From positions 1 through 42,738 of IMG/VR virus record IMGVR_UViG_3300022074_000107: a stretch of 42,738 nt of DNA; one strand, given 5' to 3'. Of the stretch, positions 1,311-42,487 are shown piece by piece (the stretch's first letter is position 1; each line of letters begins with the position of its first letter). The position numbers and the translations under genes are program-made. The notes under the pieces were generated by a model. It had not been told where the DNA came from, did not search any database, and saw nothing but the letters and a program-made list of their open reading frames with translations. The DNA is from a virus.

Positions 1311-1960
1311 AAATCGCGCGCTAGATGTGCAATCTAGGCGAAAGCACTAGGTATCCGGCCGCAACAGGGCAACACCAAGCCAGGCTGCGGCTTCATCCTA
1401 GCCTCACCATCTGTCGGCGATCAGTATATCTTATCAATCAACATAAGCAACACTAATCACTCAGTCATACCAACAGATCAGGCCACATCAGCAGCAAGTT
1501 GAGTACAAATGCTCAGTGGCTTGACCTGTCCACTGGGCTATAGTAGATCCATAGTCTTCTTTGATGTTGAGAGTATCTCGACTCTCCCTGTAAAGGGTGA
1601 GGAGAGTCTCGAAACTTCAACCAGAAGACATGAGACCCTCAAACCTACAACTTCATAGCTGAGTCTTGTATTGGCACTGAGCCACCAAGATAAGCATTTC
1701 AACTCATTCACAGCTGTCCACTAGGCTATACAGTGGAGCACCTAGACAACTTGACAGACTGCGTCACTGACGTTCCCTTGCTCGGCGATTGAGCTTCCAA
1801 GCATTGCTTGGTTGGATACATTCACGACAACCGCAGTACCACCAAAGGTGGATGGCGAGCCACAGCCTAGACAGATCATGGCAACCTATGCACAGCCCGC
1901 TGTGAATGTACTTCGACTTGTACACATAGGTATTGCGTCACCAAGGACGCATTTCTTTGC
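1311..1960 (+). ncRNA. Candidate large structured (ornate) phage RNA
   Basis: No convincing gene fills this stretch, but perfect or near-perfect short-range helices follow each other: 1321-1326/1332-1337; 1347-1351/1397-1401 enclosing 1358-1363/1386-1391; 1511-1519/1530-1538; 1554-1560/1623-1629 enclosing 1566-1570/1617-1621 and 1580-1587/1601-1608 (with an alternative GUAA tetraloop hairpin at 1586-1597); 1664-1668/1686-1690 with 1672-1675/1681-1684; 1717-1722/1732-1737; 1762-1765/1769-1772; 1797-1802/1806-1811 and 1839-1843/1847-1851, both inside 1780-1784/1856-1860. A three-way junction, 1885-1890/1925-1930, holds two hairpins, 1891-1895/1900-1904 and 1907-1911/1920-1924. The density resembles large phage RNAs of the GOLLD/ROOL kind, although I cannot match a consensus. 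Pairing was found by eye; boundaries are approximate. Confidence 0.5.
1934..1951 (+). promoter_or_regulatory. Leader hairpin, copy 1 (TGCGTC/GACGCA)
   Basis: TGCGTC accaag GACGCA forms a 6-bp stem with a 6-base loop, followed by a T-rich tract and then the ATG at 1971. An almost identical arrangement precedes the ATG at 2231. It may be an RNA-processing site, a leaky terminator or a translational control element. Confidence 0.5.
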
Positions 1961-5898: not shown

Positions 5899-8235
5899 TT
5901 GGCAACACCTGCACAAATACATGAACAAGTTCAATTTGAAAGAGATGCAATCCGACTCGGACTTGAGCGTCTACGCAAGAACACAAGAGATCTCGAAGAT
6001 AAGTCATATGCATCCGCTAGCGTATATGGGTGCAGCAGTATTTCTACTCTTCTGCCTCTTGTTACCAAACGTATTGAAGACACCAACAAGCGTATCCGAG
6101 AGGGATGTATTGGTAAATCATTCAAAGAGATCCATCAGTTTCTAGATCCCATTGAGCCAGGTGCAGCTGCTGCTATTGCATTGAAGATCACCTTCGACAA
6201 GGTGTTCAGCTACAGAGATAAAGCCAACAAACTTGTCACAGTATGCGAATCAATCGGCACTGCTGTCGAACAAGAGGCACAGATGCAGCATTATGAAAAT
6301 GTCTGTCCTGGTTTGTTAGAGACAATTAAAAAGAACTATTGGCACAACACCACTGGTACACACCAGAAGTTTGTGATCATTCGCACGCTTATTCAGCGTT
6401 ATGATGTACCTCAGTGGACAAGATGGAATGCTCCTGAAAGGGTAAAGCTTGGTGGTTGGTTGCTTGATTGCATCATGGAGTCAAGCGGTTGGTTCACAAA
6501 AGAGTACACATACCAGTACGGAAAGAAGGATCAACGTGTAGTACCTACGCCTGAGTTCATGGCTATCAAGGACGAGGTGATGGCAACAGCTGAGCTGTTC
6601 AGTCCGATTGCTTATCCCATGTTGATCGAGCCAAACGATTGGTCAGAAGGTCGGCAAGGTGGTTATCTCTTGAATGAGGTAATGCGTGGTCATGACATGG
6701 TTCGACGCGGTCAGGGATCTATACAGGGAGAGATACCTTACCAGTTTCTTAACAAGATTCAGAAGGTAGGTTATTCTATCAACTCGTTCATAATCATGGT
6801 TGCTGAGCAACTGTTTGAGCGTGGATATGAGGTTGGTAAGTTCATCCCTATCGTGGAACATCCACTTCCACCTAAGCCTGTAGATATTGCAGAGAACAAA
6901 GAATCACGCAAAGACTACAGGAGGAGAGCAGCAGAGGTAATGAACCTCAATGCGGCATCATTTAAGAAGTCATGTCGAACACGCATGACAATGGAAGCAG
7001 CTAAGTTATTCAAGGATAAGAAAGAGTTCTTCATTCCTTGGTCTTTTGACTATCGCGGAAGAGCTTATCCAATCCCTGCTTTCTTAACTCCTCAAGATAC
7101 TGACTTTGGCAAGTCATTGTTGAAGTTCAGTGAGGAGTCATACATGACACCTGAAGCTGAAGAGTGGTTAGCTTTCCAGGTAGCTACTAGCTACGGTCTA
7201 GATAAAGCACCTATGCATGAACGTATGCAGTGGGTAGCTGAGAACGATGAGGTGATATCTGCTGTCGCACTAGACCCTATTGGAAACCTACATCTTTGGG
7301 AAGGTGTAGAAGAACCGTGGCAATTCCTTGCTGCGTGTGATGAATACCACCACTGTGTAATTACTTGTGATCGAACTTTTACTAGCCTGCCAATTGCGGT
7401 TGACGCTACCTGCTCAGGGTTACAAATCCTTGCCGGACTCTGCCGTGACGCAAGCACTGCGAGACTCGTCAATGTCCTGCCGTCCAGTCGGCCACAGGAC
7501 GCATACGCCGTCGTCGCCAATCACGCCTGTCCACATGTCCCAGTAAGCATTCAGCCTTACATGGACAGAAAGACAGTTAAGCGTGTCGTGATGACTGTCC
7601 CTTACAACGCAAAGCCTCACTCCAACCGTGGATACATTCGTGATGCACTAAAGGAGAAGGGTGTAGAGGTTGATAAGGATGACTTAACTGCAACTGTGAA
7701 GGCTGTCAGAGATGCCATGGATCGGGTTGTACCTGGTCCTATGGCTGCAATGAAATGGATAGAGAGTGAGGTAGCGAAGGCTATCAAGAGAGGAGCAACA
7801 GAGCTTGAGTGGGTAACACCATCAGGCTTTGTTGTCACACAGAAGTTGAACAAGAAATTGTTTGAGCGTGTACAGCTGCAGCTACTAGGAAAGGTTGACA
7901 TACGTGTAGCAACAGAAGACAGCGACAAGGTGGATATAAACCACCACAAGAACGCTACTGCTCCTAACTTAATCCACTCGCTTGATGCATCTCTACTTCA
8001 CCTATCTGCATTGCGCTTCGATGCACCGATATCCCTCATACATGATTCGGTTCTATGTCGTGCTACTGACATGCCTTCTCTATCATCCATCGTTCGCGAG
8101 GTATACATGCACCTCTTCGCTGAACGTTCCTACTTGGAAGAGTGGGCTGAACAAATAGGTGCTGAAACTAAACCGCCGATTATCGATGATCTGAAACCAG
8201 AGTCGGTGATTGAATCTACATACTTTTTCTGTTAA
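5899..8235 (+). CDS. Single-subunit (T7-type) DNA-directed RNA polymerase
   Basis: The 778-aa product transcribes the phage middle and late genes. It is shorter than T7 gp1 (883 aa) but has all catalytic motifs: metal ligand D502 in motif A (AVDATCSGLQ), K561 and Y569 in motif B (VKRVVMTVPYNAK, the same K+8=Y spacing as T7 K631/Y639), and H715-D716 in motif C (LIHDSV). The start is TTG at 5899 with a GCGAGG ribosome site 9 bases upstream. No nearer ATG fits. A 20-bp repeat of the terminase flank lies within it (6708-6727). A G/C-richer patch at about 7420-7560 stands out. Confidence 0.95.
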   Translation: MATPAQIHEQVQFERDAIRLGLERLRKNTRDLEDKSYASASVYGCSSISTLLPLVTKRIEDTNKRIREGCIGKSFKEIHQFLDPIEPGAAAAIALKITFDKVFSYRDKANKLVTVCESIGTAVEQEAQMQHYENVCPGLLETIKKNYWHNTTGTHQKFVIIRTLIQRYDVPQWTRWNAPERVKLGGWLLDCIMESSGWFTKEYTYQYGKKDQRVVPTPEFMAIKDEVMATAELFSPIAYPMLIEPNDWSEGRQGGYLLNEVMRGHDMVRRGQGSIQGEIPYQFLNKIQKVGYSINSFIIMVAEQLFERGYEVGKFIPIVEHPLPPKPVDIAENKESRKDYRRRAAEVMNLNAASFKKSCRTRMTMEAAKLFKDKKEFFIPWSFDYRGRAYPIPAFLTPQDTDFGKSLLKFSEESYMTPEAEEWLAFQVATSYGLDKAPMHERMQWVAENDEVISAVALDPIGNLHLWEGVEEPWQFLAACDEYHHCVITCDRTFTSLPIAVDATCSGLQILAGLCRDASTARLVNVLPSSRPQDAYAVVANHACPHVPVSIQPYMDRKTVKRVVMTVPYNAKPHSNRGYIRDALKEKGVEVDKDDLTATVKAVRDAMDRVVPGPMAAMKWIESEVAKAIKRGATELEWVTPSGFVVTQKLNKKLFERVQLQLLGKVDIRVATEDSDKVDINHHKNATAPNLIHSLDASLLHLSALRFDAPISLIHDSVLCRATDMPSLSSIVREVYMHLFAERSYLEEWAEQIGAETKPPIIDDLKPESVIESTYFFC
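6708..6727 (+). repeat. 20-bp exact repeat, copy 2 (inside RNA polymerase gene)
   Basis: This copy of the 249-268 sequence codes for GQGSIQ within the polymerase and is followed by GAGAGATA. Being in coding sequence, it could be the parent of the intergenic copy through recombination, or both could be recognition sites. Confidence 0.6.
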
Positions 8236-34881: not shown

Positions 34882-37800
34882 ATGACACTGTGTTCTAATA
34901 ACACCCCTTCAACAAACGAATACACCGGCAACGGTGCAATAACTGAATATTCAATTACATTTCAATATTATAGTCAATCAGATATTTTTGTAGCTTTTTA
35001 TGATACAGCTGCAGAAGCATGGGTGTCTGTTAGTAATTCTAACTGGTCCTTCCTTAATCCTACCGTTATTAAGTTCAATACTGCACCAGCAGATAACCAA
35101 AGGATTTTAATCTATCGTTGCACTGATATTGATCCGTTACCAGCTGAATTTTTCCCTGGTAATTCTATTAAAGCAGCAGATCTAAATAACAATTTCTTTG
35201 TTATGAAGTCTGCTATTGAGGAGATTAATACTCAATCTGGTAGCAGTGACACACTAGCACAAAGCGCAAAAGCTACAGCTGATGCTGCAAATGCTAAGGC
35301 GGATACTGCTATTGCGACTGCTAATACAGCAGATACCAACGCAACTACTGCTGTAAATACAGCAAATACAGCGACTTCGACAGCAAATACAGCTAATACT
35401 ACTGCTAATGCAGCTGACACTAAAGCTGATACTGCTATTACAACCGCTAACAGTGCTTCTACTGCGGCTGGAACAGCATTAACTAATTCTCAAACCGCTA
35501 TATCAACTGCTAATACAGCTGCAACTGATGCTAGTTCAGCTGTGACAACTGCTAATGCAGCTGATACTAAAGCAGATACTGCTATTTCGACTGCTAATAC
35601 AGCTTCAACCAATGCTAGCTCAGCTGTAACAACTGCTAACTCAGCAGACACTAACGCAACCACCGCTTTGAATGCGGCTAACAGTGCCACATCAACAGCA
35701 AACACAGCGCTTTCTACAGCTAATACAGCTAACACCACTGCTAATACTGCGAACACCACTGCTAATACTGCTAATACTGCTGCTACTGCCGCTTCATCTG
35801 ATGCTAGTGCAGCCGTGTCAAGTGCTAATGCTGCTGTTACCACGGCTAATACAGCGGACACTAACGCAACTACTGCTCTAAATACTGCTAACTCTGTCGC
35901 TGGTGTTGCTAACACTGCTAACACTAACGCAACCAATGCTGTAAATACCGCTAACACAGCTCTTTCTACTGCTAACACAGCTAATACAACAGCTAATAAT
36001 GCTAATACAACAGCTAATAATGCTCTTAATCAAGTAGCTGCAGCTAGTCCTTGGTCAGAAAATAGTGGGGTTGTTAGTTTAGTCAATAGTGGTTCTAGCG
36101 TGGGTGTCGGGACGTCAAGTCCTTCTCGAAAACTCGAGGTAGCAGGTCACTTAGGTGTTGTTGGTGGCGGCAATGTGTACTTGCAGAATGGTGCCCGAGT
36201 TCAATACGGAACAAGTAACGCTACCTCTGTTATCGGTCAAGACGGATCTAATGGCTACCTTTTGTTTGGGGTCGGTAATGAAGTAGCGAGGTTTACTAGT
36301 AACGGAAATTTCGGCATCGGGACGAGTAATCCCAGCACTTTGTTAGACGTTCGAGGTGCTGGCAATCCACAAATCAAAGTATCTGCAACCAATACTGGAA
36401 CTAACAGCGCCGGACTATATATTGAAAACCAAGGGCAACGAAATTGGCAAATCTGGGCAGATAGGGCTTCAGATCAGTTTAGAATCGGAAACAACTCTAG
36501 AGCTACTACAAATCTTGCTATCACTGCCGGTGTAGGGGTGGGTATCGGCGAAGACAATCCCGACACTACCCTTCATGTTTCGGGTGGCGCCATAACCTTA
36601 GATAGTAAAGTTGCCAATGGACACTCTCGTGGTATCTTTTTCCACGATGGAACTAACTTTGGACAGCAGATTAGGAATTCAACTGGCGGCTTTGTTGCTA
36701 CCACGTACGCAGTAGAAAACAACAATAGTGGAGCTGTAGCTCACAAGTGGTATACAGGTCCTTCTGAAAGATTGAGAATTTCATCTTCGGGTAACTTGGG
36801 AGTTAACACAAGCACTCCACCAGCCAAGTTGACAGTTACCGCTGGAGCATCAGGTACTACAGCTTATGCCGGCAGAAGCCTTAACTATGGTGCATTAGTC
36901 CATACAGTTTCTGGTCGTTCTGGTTACATTGTTCAGAATACCAATTCTTTTACCACTGCAAATGACAATGCAGGCTTTCAGTGGTTGTACCCATTTGATA
37001 GTGGTGGTGATTCTAACTACAAAGTCTTCAGAAGCGCGGTTGGTGCGACACTTGCCGATAAATTCTGGGTGAACCAAGGTGGCGGTGCTTACTTTGCTGA
37101 CCATGTTGGTATCGGAAACACTAATCCAGCAGATTATGACACTACCTCAAATAATTTAGTTGTTGGAGAAGCTGGGTCAGGTGACCGTGGTATCACTATT
37201 GCTTCAGGCACCAGTCATCGTGGCACCGTTATGTTTGCTGATGGCACCAGCGGATTGGGTGAATATGCTGGCTATCTTCAATACAACCATAACGGAAATT
37301 ACCTAGCAATCGCCACTAATAACTCGGAGGCTTTGCGTATAACTTCAAACTCTCGCTTGGGAATTGGCACGTCCAGTCCGAAGCGGAGGCTGCACGTTAA
37401 TCATGCTGCTGGTGACGTCTTTACTACCATTACAGGTGACACAAACTCATACGCTGGCGTTCTGCTTGGTAATCAAGCCGATGATGCAAGAGGTCAAGTA
37501 ATATATAACAATCTCGATAATTCGCTATACTTTGTTACTAACAATTCTGGCGAAAAATTGAGAATTACATCGAACGGAAATTGCGGCATCGGGACGAGCA
37601 ATCCAGGTGCTAAATTACACGTAAAAGGTACTGATACAGGTACAAACGTCCAGCTGCTGCGGTTCCAAAACCCAAGTTCGTCAAACTTATATCTTGAATA
37701 TGCGGATGGTGCCGATGCCAATTCCGACTGGAAGTTTAGAACTGGATCTCAAGAGGCGCTGACTTTCCAGATCGGCGGAGATTTTATTGTCTCCACATCC

Positions 37801-39456
37801 GGAAGTGAGGCGATGCGCATCTCTTCCAATGGCAGCGTGGGTATCGGGGCGAGCAATCCAAGTGCTGGATTAATCGTTAGAGGTTCAGACCAAAACGCAC
37901 CAGGAGTCATCTACGATAACGGCGGGACGGGTGGCTTTATCAAAGCCTTTGGAATGGGATCTTCACCTTTTGCAGGTGGAGGTGTCTTGTTTGGTGCTGA
38001 ACAGTCTTACAGCGCTGGCTCACTTGGTTTTGCTGCAATTAAAGGTCTGCTAACTGATGGCGGTGGTAATACACGAGGTGATCTCTCTTTTTATACTCGT
38101 TCTAGTGCCAGTTCTACGCAACTGACACAAAGAATGAGGATCGACCACAACGGTACTGTAGCTATTACTGGTTCACTAACCGTTAATGGTCAATCCGTTG
38201 CTACTGGTAATATTGCTGAAGCTCCAACAGACGGGCAACAATATGCTCGTCAAAATGCCGCTTGGTCTGTTGTTTCTTCTAGTTCTGGTTATGTCAACGT
38301 AAAAGATTTTGGAGCCGTTGGTAACGGCACAACAGATGACACTACTGCTGTGAGGAATGCTCTTAATGGTGGTGGTACTGTTTACTTCCCTAAAGGTACT
38401 TATCGAATTACCAGTACTTTAAACCACACGTCGGCTTTTAATGTTGTTGGTGACGGTCAACAATCTCGGATTATGTTCGATGCATCCTCAAACAACTCGA
38501 ACCTGTTCAATTTAGAGACCAACGTCCGTCATAACAATGCTAAGAAATGGTCCTTTAGTAGTATTGCTCTCAGTTGTAAGGCTGTTGCAAATAGAATACA
38601 TGCTGCTGGTATCAGAATTGCATACACTGGTCCGGCTACAGTCATTGGCGGTACTAACTATCTAGAACTAAATGACGTTCACATTGTTAGTGAAATAACT
38701 ACTGATGCAACTCAGGCTTACTTTAGATACGGGCTTTCAACTGTTAACATTGGCGGTATTGTTGCTGATAATTTAAATATTTCTACGTTTAATGCTAATG
38801 CAGAAAATGATTCCAGTACTATTGGCATCTACATTCAAAATAATATATCTGGTCACGCTGTAATTCGTGCTTTTACTGGTAATAACATTTACCTACAAAG
38901 GTATTATCAAGGTCTACATGCAACAAAAGCTGGCGGTGGTCAAAACATCGAAAGCATTTATATGACTCAAGGTGAAATTGTTTGCAAGGTAGGTATCCAT
39001 CTGGCTGCTTCTCACGCTACCTTTATTAGTGGTATGCATATTGAATGCCAGAAAGAATCCTACATTAATAGCAGCGATGGTGGTCCTCACCGAGTTGTAG
39101 GCTGTGATTTACGAGGTGGTCGTAATGGCACTCAAAATCTAACCGATTACTTAATTAAAATTGGCGTAGATAACTGTTCATTTACTGGAAATTATATTAC
39201 CGCTCAAATGCCTAGTGCCGGTTGTATTAGAACAGGTGGTAGTACCGGTAACCCTGATAATGTAAGCATTGTAGGTAATATCTTTAATGGTAATGGTTCA
39301 TCTACCTACCGCGCTCTTTCTTGTGAAAGTGGCTCTGTTAACGTTATATTTACTGGTAATCTTGGCAGTGGTTTTGGCGGCAACTCCAACCCAGTCTTCA
39401 ATCAAATTGGCACTGGGCAAGGAAAGTTGAACAATACAGCTAACGAGTTTCAGTAA
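34882..39456 (+). CDS. Tail fibre protein, 1524 aa
   Basis: It mediates host recognition. In order: a T7 gp17-type N-terminal attachment domain (residues about 1-115, TEYSITFQYYSQSDIFVAFY); an Ala/Thr/Asn coiled-coil shaft of about 265 residues made of ANTA/ADTKADTAI repeats; a long beta-rich region with repeated GIGTSNPSxxLxV units and LRITSNGN blocks; and a C-terminal parallel beta-helix starting VNVKDFGAVGNGTTDDTTAV (pectate-lyase-like) to the end. Such beta-helices often bind or cut polysaccharide. The intramolecular chaperone at the very end is not evident. Confidence 0.93.
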   Translation: MTLCSNNTPSTNEYTGNGAITEYSITFQYYSQSDIFVAFYDTAAEAWVSVSNSNWSFLNPTVIKFNTAPADNQRILIYRCTDIDPLPAEFFPGNSIKAADLNNNFFVMKSAIEEINTQSGSSDTLAQSAKATADAANAKADTAIATANTADTNATTAVNTANTATSTANTANTTANAADTKADTAITTANSASTAAGTALTNSQTAISTANTAATDASSAVTTANAADTKADTAISTANTASTNASSAVTTANSADTNATTALNAANSATSTANTALSTANTANTTANTANTTANTANTAATAASSDASAAVSSANAAVTTANTADTNATTALNTANSVAGVANTANTNATNAVNTANTALSTANTANTTANNANTTANNALNQVAAASPWSENSGVVSLVNSGSSVGVGTSSPSRKLEVAGHLGVVGGGNVYLQNGARVQYGTSNATSVIGQDGSNGYLLFGVGNEVARFTSNGNFGIGTSNPSTLLDVRGAGNPQIKVSATNTGTNSAGLYIENQGQRNWQIWADRASDQFRIGNNSRATTNLAITAGVGVGIGEDNPDTTLHVSGGAITLDSKVANGHSRGIFFHDGTNFGQQIRNSTGGFVATTYAVENNNSGAVAHKWYTGPSERLRISSSGNLGVNTSTPPAKLTVTAGASGTTAYAGRSLNYGALVHTVSGRSGYIVQNTNSFTTANDNAGFQWLYPFDSGGDSNYKVFRSAVGATLADKFWVNQGGGAYFADHVGIGNTNPADYDTTSNNLVVGEAGSGDRGITIASGTSHRGTVMFADGTSGLGEYAGYLQYNHNGNYLAIATNNSEALRITSNSRLGIGTSSPKRRLHVNHAAGDVFTTITGDTNSYAGVLLGNQADDARGQVIYNNLDNSLYFVTNNSGEKLRITSNGNCGIGTSNPGAKLHVKGTDTGTNVQLLRFQNPSSSNLYLEYADGADANSDWKFRTGSQEALTFQIGGDFIVSTSGSEAMRISSNGSVGIGASNPSAGLIVRGSDQNAPGVIYDNGGTGGFIKAFGMGSSPFAGGGVLFGAEQSYSAGSLGFAAIKGLLTDGGGNTRGDLSFYTRSSASSTQLTQRMRIDHNGTVAITGSLTVNGQSVATGNIAEAPTDGQQYARQNAAWSVVSSSSGYVNVKDFGAVGNGTTDDTTAVRNALNGGGTVYFPKGTYRITSTLNHTSAFNVVGDGQQSRIMFDASSNNSNLFNLETNVRHNNAKKWSFSSIALSCKAVANRIHAAGIRIAYTGPATVIGGTNYLELNDVHIVSEITTDATQAYFRYGLSTVNIGGIVADNLNISTFNANAENDSSTIGIYIQNNISGHAVIRAFTGNNIYLQRYYQGLHATKAGGGQNIESIYMTQGEIVCKVGIHLAASHATFISGMHIECQKESYINSSDGGPHRVVGCDLRGGRNGTQNLTDYLIKIGVDNCSFTGNYITAQMPSAGCIRTGGSTGNPDNVSIVGNIFNGNGSSTYRALSCESGSVNVIFTGNLGSGFGGNSNPVFNQIGTGQGKLNNTANEFQ
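35245..36035 (+). repeat. Degenerate tandem repeat encoding the fibre shaft
   Basis: Imperfect copies of a gctaatacagc-type unit encode the T-A-N-T-A-N-T shaft. Because of it, the complementary strand also has long Ala/Val open frames with no biological meaning. The stretch is prone to slippage and can vary in length between relatives. Confidence 0.75.
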
Positions 39457-41467: not shown

Positions 41468-42487
41468 ATGGCTATACGACCCACTGAATTGAGTTGGGCT
41501 AATTACAAAAAAGCGGCTAAAAACCTCAAGCTTGTTAAACCAGGCATTACCCCTCAACAAATTATTGGCCGTATAGGATACCCCCTTAAAAACGGCCAGA
41601 GAATATTTATTACTTCTGATGGTAAAGGTGGTATTAAGCAGCGCAACCGCACAGCTCACGATGCACGCAATGCGCAACGCGAAAAACGTAGGCGTATTCA
41701 AACTGGCAAACTGTCCCCTGCTGATTCTGCGGAATCAAGGCGTATAAAAGACGAAACTAAAGCAGGTGGTCAGCAAGTTGACCATTTTAATGAGATTGCT
41801 TTTATTGGTGAACAGCTTGAAAGGCTTGAGCGTGCTGGTGGAGATGTTCAAGCAGCGTTGCAACGGCTTCGCGATGCAGGTTACTACTTTGGTGATGAAC
41901 CTGGAAACTTGCAGCCTCTTTCACCTGAAGACAACATTATTAAAAATCAACAATCTCAAGATTTGCAATCATACCTTGGTAGCCGCGAATCACTAGGCCA
42001 GTCTCCATCTGCTAGAAGGCCTGACCTTATTGTTGTTGGCGAAGACCTATCTATACGGCAAACTCAGTTCCCTGGCACACAAGCAAACACTGGCATTCAA
42101 GTTACTGCAGGACAAGCACAGTGGAAGTCGCCACCACTGGGTGGTTTTGTTGGTCAAGAACGGACTCCTTATGTCACCCCGCCTTCACCAAAGTATGTCC
42201 CACCGCTTGTACAGCAGTACAGCTATCAGACAAACGGTAATGGCAATGGAAATGGTAACGGTAATGGTAATGGTAACGGTAACGGCACTACGCCTTCCAA
42301 TGGCAATGGCAATGGCAATGGCAATGGTAACGGTAATTTAGTCGAAGACCTTATAGACATGACTAGCCAACTAGATCCACAATTTAAGAACCCAATTGAC
42401 TTGGCTCCTGTTTTCACAGCCGGTCAAATCATTCTTAGAACTGCTGGTACTGCTGCTGCTCTTGCAGGATCCTATTTAGTCAGATAA
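41468..42487 (+). CDS. Hypothetical protein, 339 aa, HNH-like remnant and Asn-Gly repeats
   Basis: The N-terminal part is basic (AHDARNAQREKRRRIQTGKL). GGQQVDHFNEIAFIGEQLER followed by GNLQPLSPEDNIIKNQQ resembles an HNH/His-Me finger nuclease (DH, then N and K-N) but lacks zinc cysteines. A Pro-rich middle and two (NG)n runs at about residues 257-290 follow, then a C-terminal membrane-like helix (IILRTAGTAAALAGSYLV). Start at 41468 immediately follows a terminator; no ribosome site is visible. It may be a virion or packaging protein; function is unknown. Confidence 0.55.
   Translation: MAIRPTELSWANYKKAAKNLKLVKPGITPQQIIGRIGYPLKNGQRIFITSDGKGGIKQRNRTAHDARNAQREKRRRIQTGKLSPADSAESRRIKDETKAGGQQVDHFNEIAFIGEQLERLERAGGDVQAALQRLRDAGYYFGDEPGNLQPLSPEDNIIKNQQSQDLQSYLGSRESLGQSPSARRPDLIVVGEDLSIRQTQFPGTQANTGIQVTAGQAQWKSPPLGGFVGQERTPYVTPPSPKYVPPLVQQYSYQTNGNGNGNGNGNGNGNGNGTTPSNGNGNGNGNGNGNLVEDLIDMTSQLDPQFKNPIDLAPVFTAGQIILRTAGTAAALAGSYLVR
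42233..42338 (+). repeat. Hexanucleotide-type repeat (ggtaay/ggcaat) encoding Asn-Gly runs
   Basis: Two runs of alternating Asn-Gly codons are separated by acTTPS-coding sequence. Codon variation (ggt/ggc/gga, aat/aac) shows that the amino acid pattern is under some maintenance, not just slippage. Confidence 0.75.

Follow-up and report, generated by a model that had tools for sequence, protein, structure and literature searches.

The DNA analyzed here (the window) is the whole of the 42,738-base viral record IMGVR_UViG_3300022074_000107, which among annotated sequences is closest to Synechococcus podoviruses and to uncultured relatives from the sea. The gene for its T7-like RNA polymerase lies at 5899-8235. 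Positions 1311-1960 of the window adjoin the left end of the genome and belong to a leader of the early transcript, built of modules, in a T7-like phage of Synechococcus. Its modules are the genome end, a promoter, a hairpin, a boxA-like motif, a second promoter-like site, small hairpins and a tRNA-like structure, which are placed 5' of early mRNAs and are kept and swapped independently among the relatives. The features of the leader and of the early genes behind it are:

1267-1450, no strand: probable terminal direct repeat at the left end of the linear genome, placed by homology to the start of S-SBP1; limits approximate
1539-1544, + strand: P1, a presumed host-polymerase promoter with the -10 box TATAGT; spacing conserved in relatives
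1555-1629, + strand: conserved hairpin with internal helices and an outer stem that pairs 1555-1561 to 1623-1629 and covaries; covariance model 91.7 bits, E 1.6e-20; folding z -5.0
1575-1612, + strand: 38-nt core of this hairpin, ATCTCGACTCTCC..GGAGAGTCTCGA; paired columns invariant in 82 sequences
1639-1657, + strand: degenerate boxA-like stretch TCAAACCTACAACTTCATA, weak in the window, with two bases missing relative to the host boxA; its position corresponds to that of the boxA located ~20 nt after the core in relatives
1664-1690, + strand: small hairpin TCTTG..TGGC-ACTGA-GCCA..CAAGA; TGGCAC-TG-GCCA conserved in relatives
1727-1734, + strand: P2, a second promoter-like -10 site (TATACAGT) and probable second promoter; GTATACAGTGG in relatives L195, L197 and L407, then a boxA-like motif
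1738-1756, + strand: second boxA-like copy GCACCTAGACAACTTGACA, 14/19 to the host boxA; aligned relatives read GAACCTTGACAACT
1780-1794, + strand: hairpin GCTC..GAGC, absent from the initial annotation; compensatory GCCC..GGGC in relative L204
1797-1811, + strand: hairpin CCAAGC-ATT-GCTTGG; same stem with an altered loop in L204
1839-1851, + strand: hairpin CCACC-AAA-GGTGG; CCAGC-TAT-GCTGG in L204, with one compensatory pair
1884-1931, + strand: tRNA-like structure 1, a three-way junction with no anticodon arm; compensatory changes in relatives L195, L197 and L190
1934-1951, + strand: short hairpin TGCGTC..GACGCA, 3' of tRNA-like structure 1 and 5' of the first ATG; conserved in relatives, with a near-copy 254 nt downstream
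1971-2147, + strand: first early gene, 58 aa, a relative of Syn5 gp4 (87% nucleotide identity over 99 nt)
2137-2186, + strand: tRNA-like structure 2, holding the stop of the first gene (2145-2147), from the scan and the ORF list
2231-2500, + strand: second early gene, from the ORF list; start assigned by position
2491-2539, + strand: tRNA-like structure 3, holding the stop of the second gene (2498-2500), from the scan and the ORF list
2582-2878, + strand: third early gene, from the ORF list

The linear record of S-SBP1 begins with sequence that matches the window near 1267, and exact terminal repeats of 150, 180, and 237 nt are found in S-TIP37, S-SBP1, and Syn5, respectively. A terminal direct repeat thus probably lies at 1267-1450, with the ends of the record itself falling elsewhere, and by homology the 5' part of 1311-1960 would overlap the terminal-repeat end of the genome. 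Far from the leader, we also noticed a long fibre-like ORF with TANTANT-type repeats at 34882-39456 and an ORF with an NGNGNG run at 41468-42487.

The initial annotation, which was made from the sequence alone, regarded 1311-1960 as a candidate for one large noncoding RNA of a podovirus early region, which might be of the GOLLD/ROOL type or of a new class. Its observation that the region holds no convincing gene is confirmed by the ORF list, which contains no convincing ORF spanning it. The + strand folds at -211.4 kcal/mol, compared to -178.1 ± 5.8 kcal/mol for shuffled controls (z -5.7), in agreement with the proposed structure; as the - strand also folds better than its shuffles (z -6.3), the energy alone cannot pick the strand. 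That the region is structured, noncoding and subject to covariation is borne out by the relatives: the nested domain (1555-1629) covaries across 82 distinct relatives, arm pairs of the three-way junction (1884-1931) are compensated as listed above, with the sequences given below, and both of the hairpins with three-base loops recur in L204. The suggested link to tRNA-like sequences was also well founded, for a tRNA-like structure is part of the region itself. The single ornate RNA was not supported. A covariance search with Rfam found no GOLLD or ROOL match at gathering score in the window and none at E ≤ 10 in 1250-2650, and separate modules were found instead. The proposed limits enclose noncoding structured sequence as claimed, with some corrections: the start of the structured RNA is most likely near 1550, that of the first gene is at 1971, and further copies of the tRNA-like element, at 2137 and 2491, lie outside. 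The Glutamine-II riboswitch aptamer at 952-1004 (42.3 bits) was the sole Rfam match at gathering score in the window, while a lax search of 1250-2650 returned implausible weak matches only. In S-RIP1 and in one uncultured relative, a sequence related to this riboswitch follows psbA on its 3' side and precedes the capsid gene.

Viral contigs were scanned with each half of the hairpin core and loci among the matches listed were then fetched, so that the counts are lower bounds. The fetched loci include at least 114 exact 38-nt cores and a few near-exact ones. The hairpin is found in more than 100 contigs of environmental phages and in the cultured phages S-TIP37, S-SBP1, S-CBP3, S-CBP4, and S-RIP2, with the sequence of 1549-1652 conserved at 80-91% in several phages; P-SSP7 and Syn5 have no such hairpin. 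Its place in the annotated phages is always the same, past the genome end and ahead of the first early gene. In all 82 distinct sequences, the paired columns of the core are unchanged, and all nine pairs of the outer stem (9/9) are altered on both sides across the same set; one outer pair, for example, is AU in 30 sequences, UA in 19, CG in 14, and GC in 13. The cells of this alignment are paired in 95.9% of cases, a share that falls to 79.3% when the alignment is shuffled and to 42-54% when the register is slid, and the covariation score was reached by none of 500 shuffles. The consensus and single-sequence folds disagree slightly on the pairing register of the core, and divergent members with a re-paired core were identified via the covariance model (L195, L197, L198, L186, L402, L407, and L417). 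A core of fixed sequence suggests that something specific recognizes it, and the pure covariation of the outer stem points to a structural handle. With regard to a host origin, the core pattern was unmatched in genome contigs and a covariance-model search of 151 related host genomes gave no match, an empty answer that constitutes weak evidence. Two loci, L091 and L123, possess a second copy of the core 625 nt downstream of the first, with an outer stem that is unrelated yet self-complementary, directly before a T-arm-like hairpin.

A coding reading of the hairpin was also considered, as a minus-strand CDS is annotated over it in S-CBP4 and S-CBP3 (L457:257-652 and L459:8703-8933). Because the hairpins of the relatives contain 1- and 2-nt indels and paired covariation, these annotations appear spurious and are probably not genes.

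Of the 109 distinct relatives, 101 have a TAtnnT box at a distance of 28-34 nt on the 5' side of the core. These sequences share ancestry and the scan was designed to detect boxes of this kind; what is informative is that the distance is constant. No clear -35 was seen at P1. With a -10 box at such a constant distance, the RNA would begin a few bases from the outer stem, and we infer that transcription starts at P1, which would be the 5' end of the hairpin RNA.

In one large group of relatives, the hairpin core is followed after ~20 nt by a boxA, GAACCTYGACAACTKMATA; in another group the boxA is found 100-150 nt past the core, often behind a second promoter-like site. Among the matches listed for genome contigs of 84,980 bacterial and archaeal species, GAACCTYGACAACTKMATA occurs mostly in Prochlorococcus and Synechococcus, where the host copy lies ~430-740 nt past the 3' end of 16S, i.e., in the 16S-23S spacer. 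Both boxA and D4 are known components of cyanobacterial spacers (PMC10172474, citing Iteman 2000). Among 95 hairpin loci that were fetched without use of the boxA motif, 73 have a match of at least 15/19 to the host boxA within 170 nt, versus 1 of 2380 shuffles, and 18 score below 14/19. In each of the six named hairpin-bearing phages that were checked, the best boxA match of the entire genome is the one in the leader, and no match of at least 15/19 is found in the genomes of Syn5 and P-SSP7, both of which are without the hairpin. In the window, the best boxA (14/19 at 1738) is tied with four chance matches elsewhere in the genome. Both copies in the window are degenerate, and taken alone they do not exceed chance; the boxA claim therefore rests on the relatives, in which the motif is conserved in sequence, single-stranded and set in place.

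The host genomes also contain an opposing near-copy of boxA 3.1-3.3 kb away that differs by one letter (GAGAAC), which is consistent with the 23S trailer. The phages retain the spacer version, with the C of GACAA present in 96 of 97, which favors recognition as boxA over pairing with the trailer. Given the opposing near-copy, the spacer boxA of picocyanobacteria may double as part of a pre-23S stem. It should be noted that unrelated viral contigs without the hairpin (L377-L454, e.g., L412, L424, L404, and L451) also contain GAACCTTGACAACTGAATA-like motifs, some of them behind promoter-like sequence. A promoter with at least 9/12 promoter bases precedes the boxA of the unrelated contigs in 43% versus 25%, an enrichment so mild that no claim is made for phages at large. 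In Escherichia coli, boxA binds NusB-S10, is reported to raise the elongation rate and supports antitermination of a reporter, although it has been argued that in the case of E. coli rRNA the complex serves mainly in maturation (PMC4807359).

The 5' hairpin could also be an RNase III-type processing site or an mRNA-stabilizing element with no effect on transcription, similar in role to the RNase III sites of T7 early mRNA, in which case the likeness to boxA would serve folding or be inherited from a captured spacer. This would agree with the presumed 5' end of a T7-like early transcript being occupied by a hairpin that is long and irregular. RNase III sites, however, depend on shape more than on sequence, whereas 38 nt of this hairpin, including the loop region, barely vary, and the boxA is conserved as a single-stranded sequence at a fixed place. 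We consider this explanation rather unlikely.

The three-way junction of the leader is shaped like a tRNA with no anticodon arm. When both strands of the entire window were scanned strictly, three tRNA-like structures and no more emerged (1884, 2137, and 2491). All of them are on the + strand, and each of the first three early genes has its ATG 39-44 nt after one of them; shuffled genomes yielded 0.25-0.4 each, numbers that are descriptive rather than an independent test as the scan was designed after the first examples had been seen. ARAGORN found no complete tRNA with an anticodon arm in the window. In structure 1, positions 1884-1890 pair with 1925-1931 as an acceptor-like stem of 7 bp. The other two elements are an arm of 5 bp and a hairpin similar to a T-arm, the 3' strand of which continues directly into the acceptor strand. 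Its 5-bp arm is CACAG/CTGTG in the window, GATAG/CTATC in L195, TACAG/CTGTA in L197, and CAGGG/CCCTG in L190. With a loop of 8 nt and a non-standard closing pair, structure 1 is the least tRNA-like of the three.

Further analyses used the T-loop as an anchor. A perfect 5-bp stem with the constant G-C closing pair was found at 37 of 42 TTCGAGT and 30 of 41 TGCAATG heptamers, and the same 5-bp T-stem was found at 1 of 80 control heptamers. The T-arms extend into an acceptor-like strand, for 12 bp in total, in 55 of 94 cases versus 130 of 940 (14%) shuffled ones, with gaps of mostly 16-17 nt. The small 5' arm, which was outside the 12-bp selection, shows compensatory changes (CCG/CGG, ACG/CGU, GGG/CCC, and GAG/CUC), and the boundary between acceptor and T-stem moves among the relatives from 7+5 to 5+7 bp. 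The structures thus have a T-loop hairpin stacked on an acceptor-like stem of ~12 bp, as expected of a tRNA-like processing substrate. Recognition by RNase P has been attributed to the 12 bp from the T-loop to the 5' end, and RNase P cleaves models that consist of the acceptor plus the T-arm (PMC11143913). The stop codon of the preceding gene falls within the structure in the case of both 2 and 3, and a 5' cut by RNase P would remove it, which argues against such a cut; processing on the 3' side, or protection of the 3' end of the upstream mRNA, would fit better at these two structures. In S-TIP37, S-SBP1, and S45C4, tRNA-like structures are also found ~120 nt before the capsid gene (L455:20516, L456:19299, and L462:29648). 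The whole-genome counts of tRNA-like structures in other phages are only modestly above those of shuffles, and isolated hits in these phages are therefore not counted as proven.

The tRNA-like structures might instead be translation-control elements that couple each early gene to the preceding one, since folding would be linked with translation through the constant distance to the start codon and through the upstream stop codons that the structures include. We know of no translation element with the anatomy of a tRNA-like three-way junction, and structure 1 has no preceding gene. The combination of a T-loop with a 12-bp stacked helix is, moreover, the feature that is read by RNase P (PMC11143913), and control of translation is in our view unlikely.

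Release of the leader as a single trans-acting noncoding RNA of a new ornate class would account for a conserved structure that extends over several hundred gene-free nt, and a cut at 1884 would release such an RNA. The strong conservation is, however, limited to the first hairpin, the modules are swapped separately and stand mostly in cis before genes, and Rfam offers no match, which makes this explanation highly improbable. A DNA element for packaging, cleavage or replication, which would suit a nearly fixed core no more than a few hundred bp from the left end, is the least credible of all, as covariation of the outer stem requires single-strand folding, the -10 spacing and subsequent boxA link the hairpin to transcription, and two relatives contain the second, downstream copy.

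The reading that we prefer, with a confidence somewhat short of even, is a nut/put-like site that would recruit host rRNA-type antitermination for the early operon, together with tRNA-like elements that would punctuate the early mRNA. Conserved RNA structure was found at the presumed 5' end of an early transcript, as at nut and put sites, with this end placed from the -10 box. Host RNA polymerase would start at P1, adjoining the left end of the genome, and the first ~75 nt of the RNA would fold into the conserved hairpin, followed in most relatives by the host-type boxA. The hairpin-boxA unit could load host NusB-S10/NusA/NusG in cis or act directly on the polymerase, which would thereby gain the processivity to cross the early region, rich in hairpins, as far as the gene of the phage polymerase. 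Both elements would act at the start of infection, before phage proteins exist, and the presumed second promoter with its boxA-like copy would repeat the arrangement of the hairpin region. To our knowledge, cyanobacteria are without Rho, and any benefit of a boxA would therefore be against intrinsic terminators, pausing or misfolding. The anticodon-less tRNA-like structures before the first genes would most likely be 3'-end or processing signals for tRNA-maturation enzymes, read by RNase Z and possibly RNase P, and processing would leave the next mRNA with its own 5' hairpin. A bolder formulation is that a lytic phage group copies the rRNA antitermination signal of its host beside a nearly invariant hairpin for processivity of the early operon, and separates its early genes by miniature anticodon-less tRNAs that are read by host tRNA-processing enzymes, i.e., tRNA punctuation in a bacterial virus; we put this forward as a doubtful possibility.

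No description of the element turned up in searches of open-access papers on cyanophage antitermination, on phage boxA with rRNA antitermination and on tRNA-like processing of phage mRNA, and we likewise found none of the way in which T7-like cyanophages steer the host RNA polymerase when infection begins. The features of the leader suggest that a virus borrows ribosomal and tRNA signals of its host to run its early genes. If the boxA reading is true, a phage uses a host rRNA signal in bacteria that are not known to have Rho; if the tRNA-like reading is true, this is an unusual way of dividing a phage operon. As the conserved RNA occurs in more than 100 environmental contigs and in cultured phages, the steering of host RNA polymerase can be tested directly in existing phage-host systems.

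Among the known systems, the leader, which no Rfam family matches, most resembles antitermination leaders combined with tRNA-like processing signals. With GOLLD and ROOL it shares phage-borne structured noncoding sequence of several hundred nt, but it matches neither covariance model and is a modular leader rather than one fold. Similar to the put RNA of HK022, with which it is compared by role only and from general knowledge, it has a conserved folded RNA at the start of an early phage transcript that presumably acts in cis before phage proteins; the differences are the single long hairpin, the extra boxA and another host phylum. The nut sites of lambda and the antitermination leaders of rRNA likewise combine a hairpin with a boxA close to where the host polymerase begins an early or an rRNA transcript, and the boxA of the phage's relatives is that of the host itself. 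The order of hairpin and then boxA is that of rRNA, whereas in lambda boxA precedes boxB; the hairpin here is large with a nearly fixed core, the antitermination is putative and, unlike in lambda, no N-like phage protein was identified. Like the RNase III sites of T7 early mRNA, the structures between the early genes could divide the early mRNA, but they are tRNA-like three-way junctions and not simple hairpins. With tRNA-like RNase P substrates and tRNA punctuation they share a T-loop hairpin stacked on an acceptor-like stem of ~12 bp (PMC11143913), and they differ in being candidate substrates without an anticodon arm that are located within a phage mRNA.
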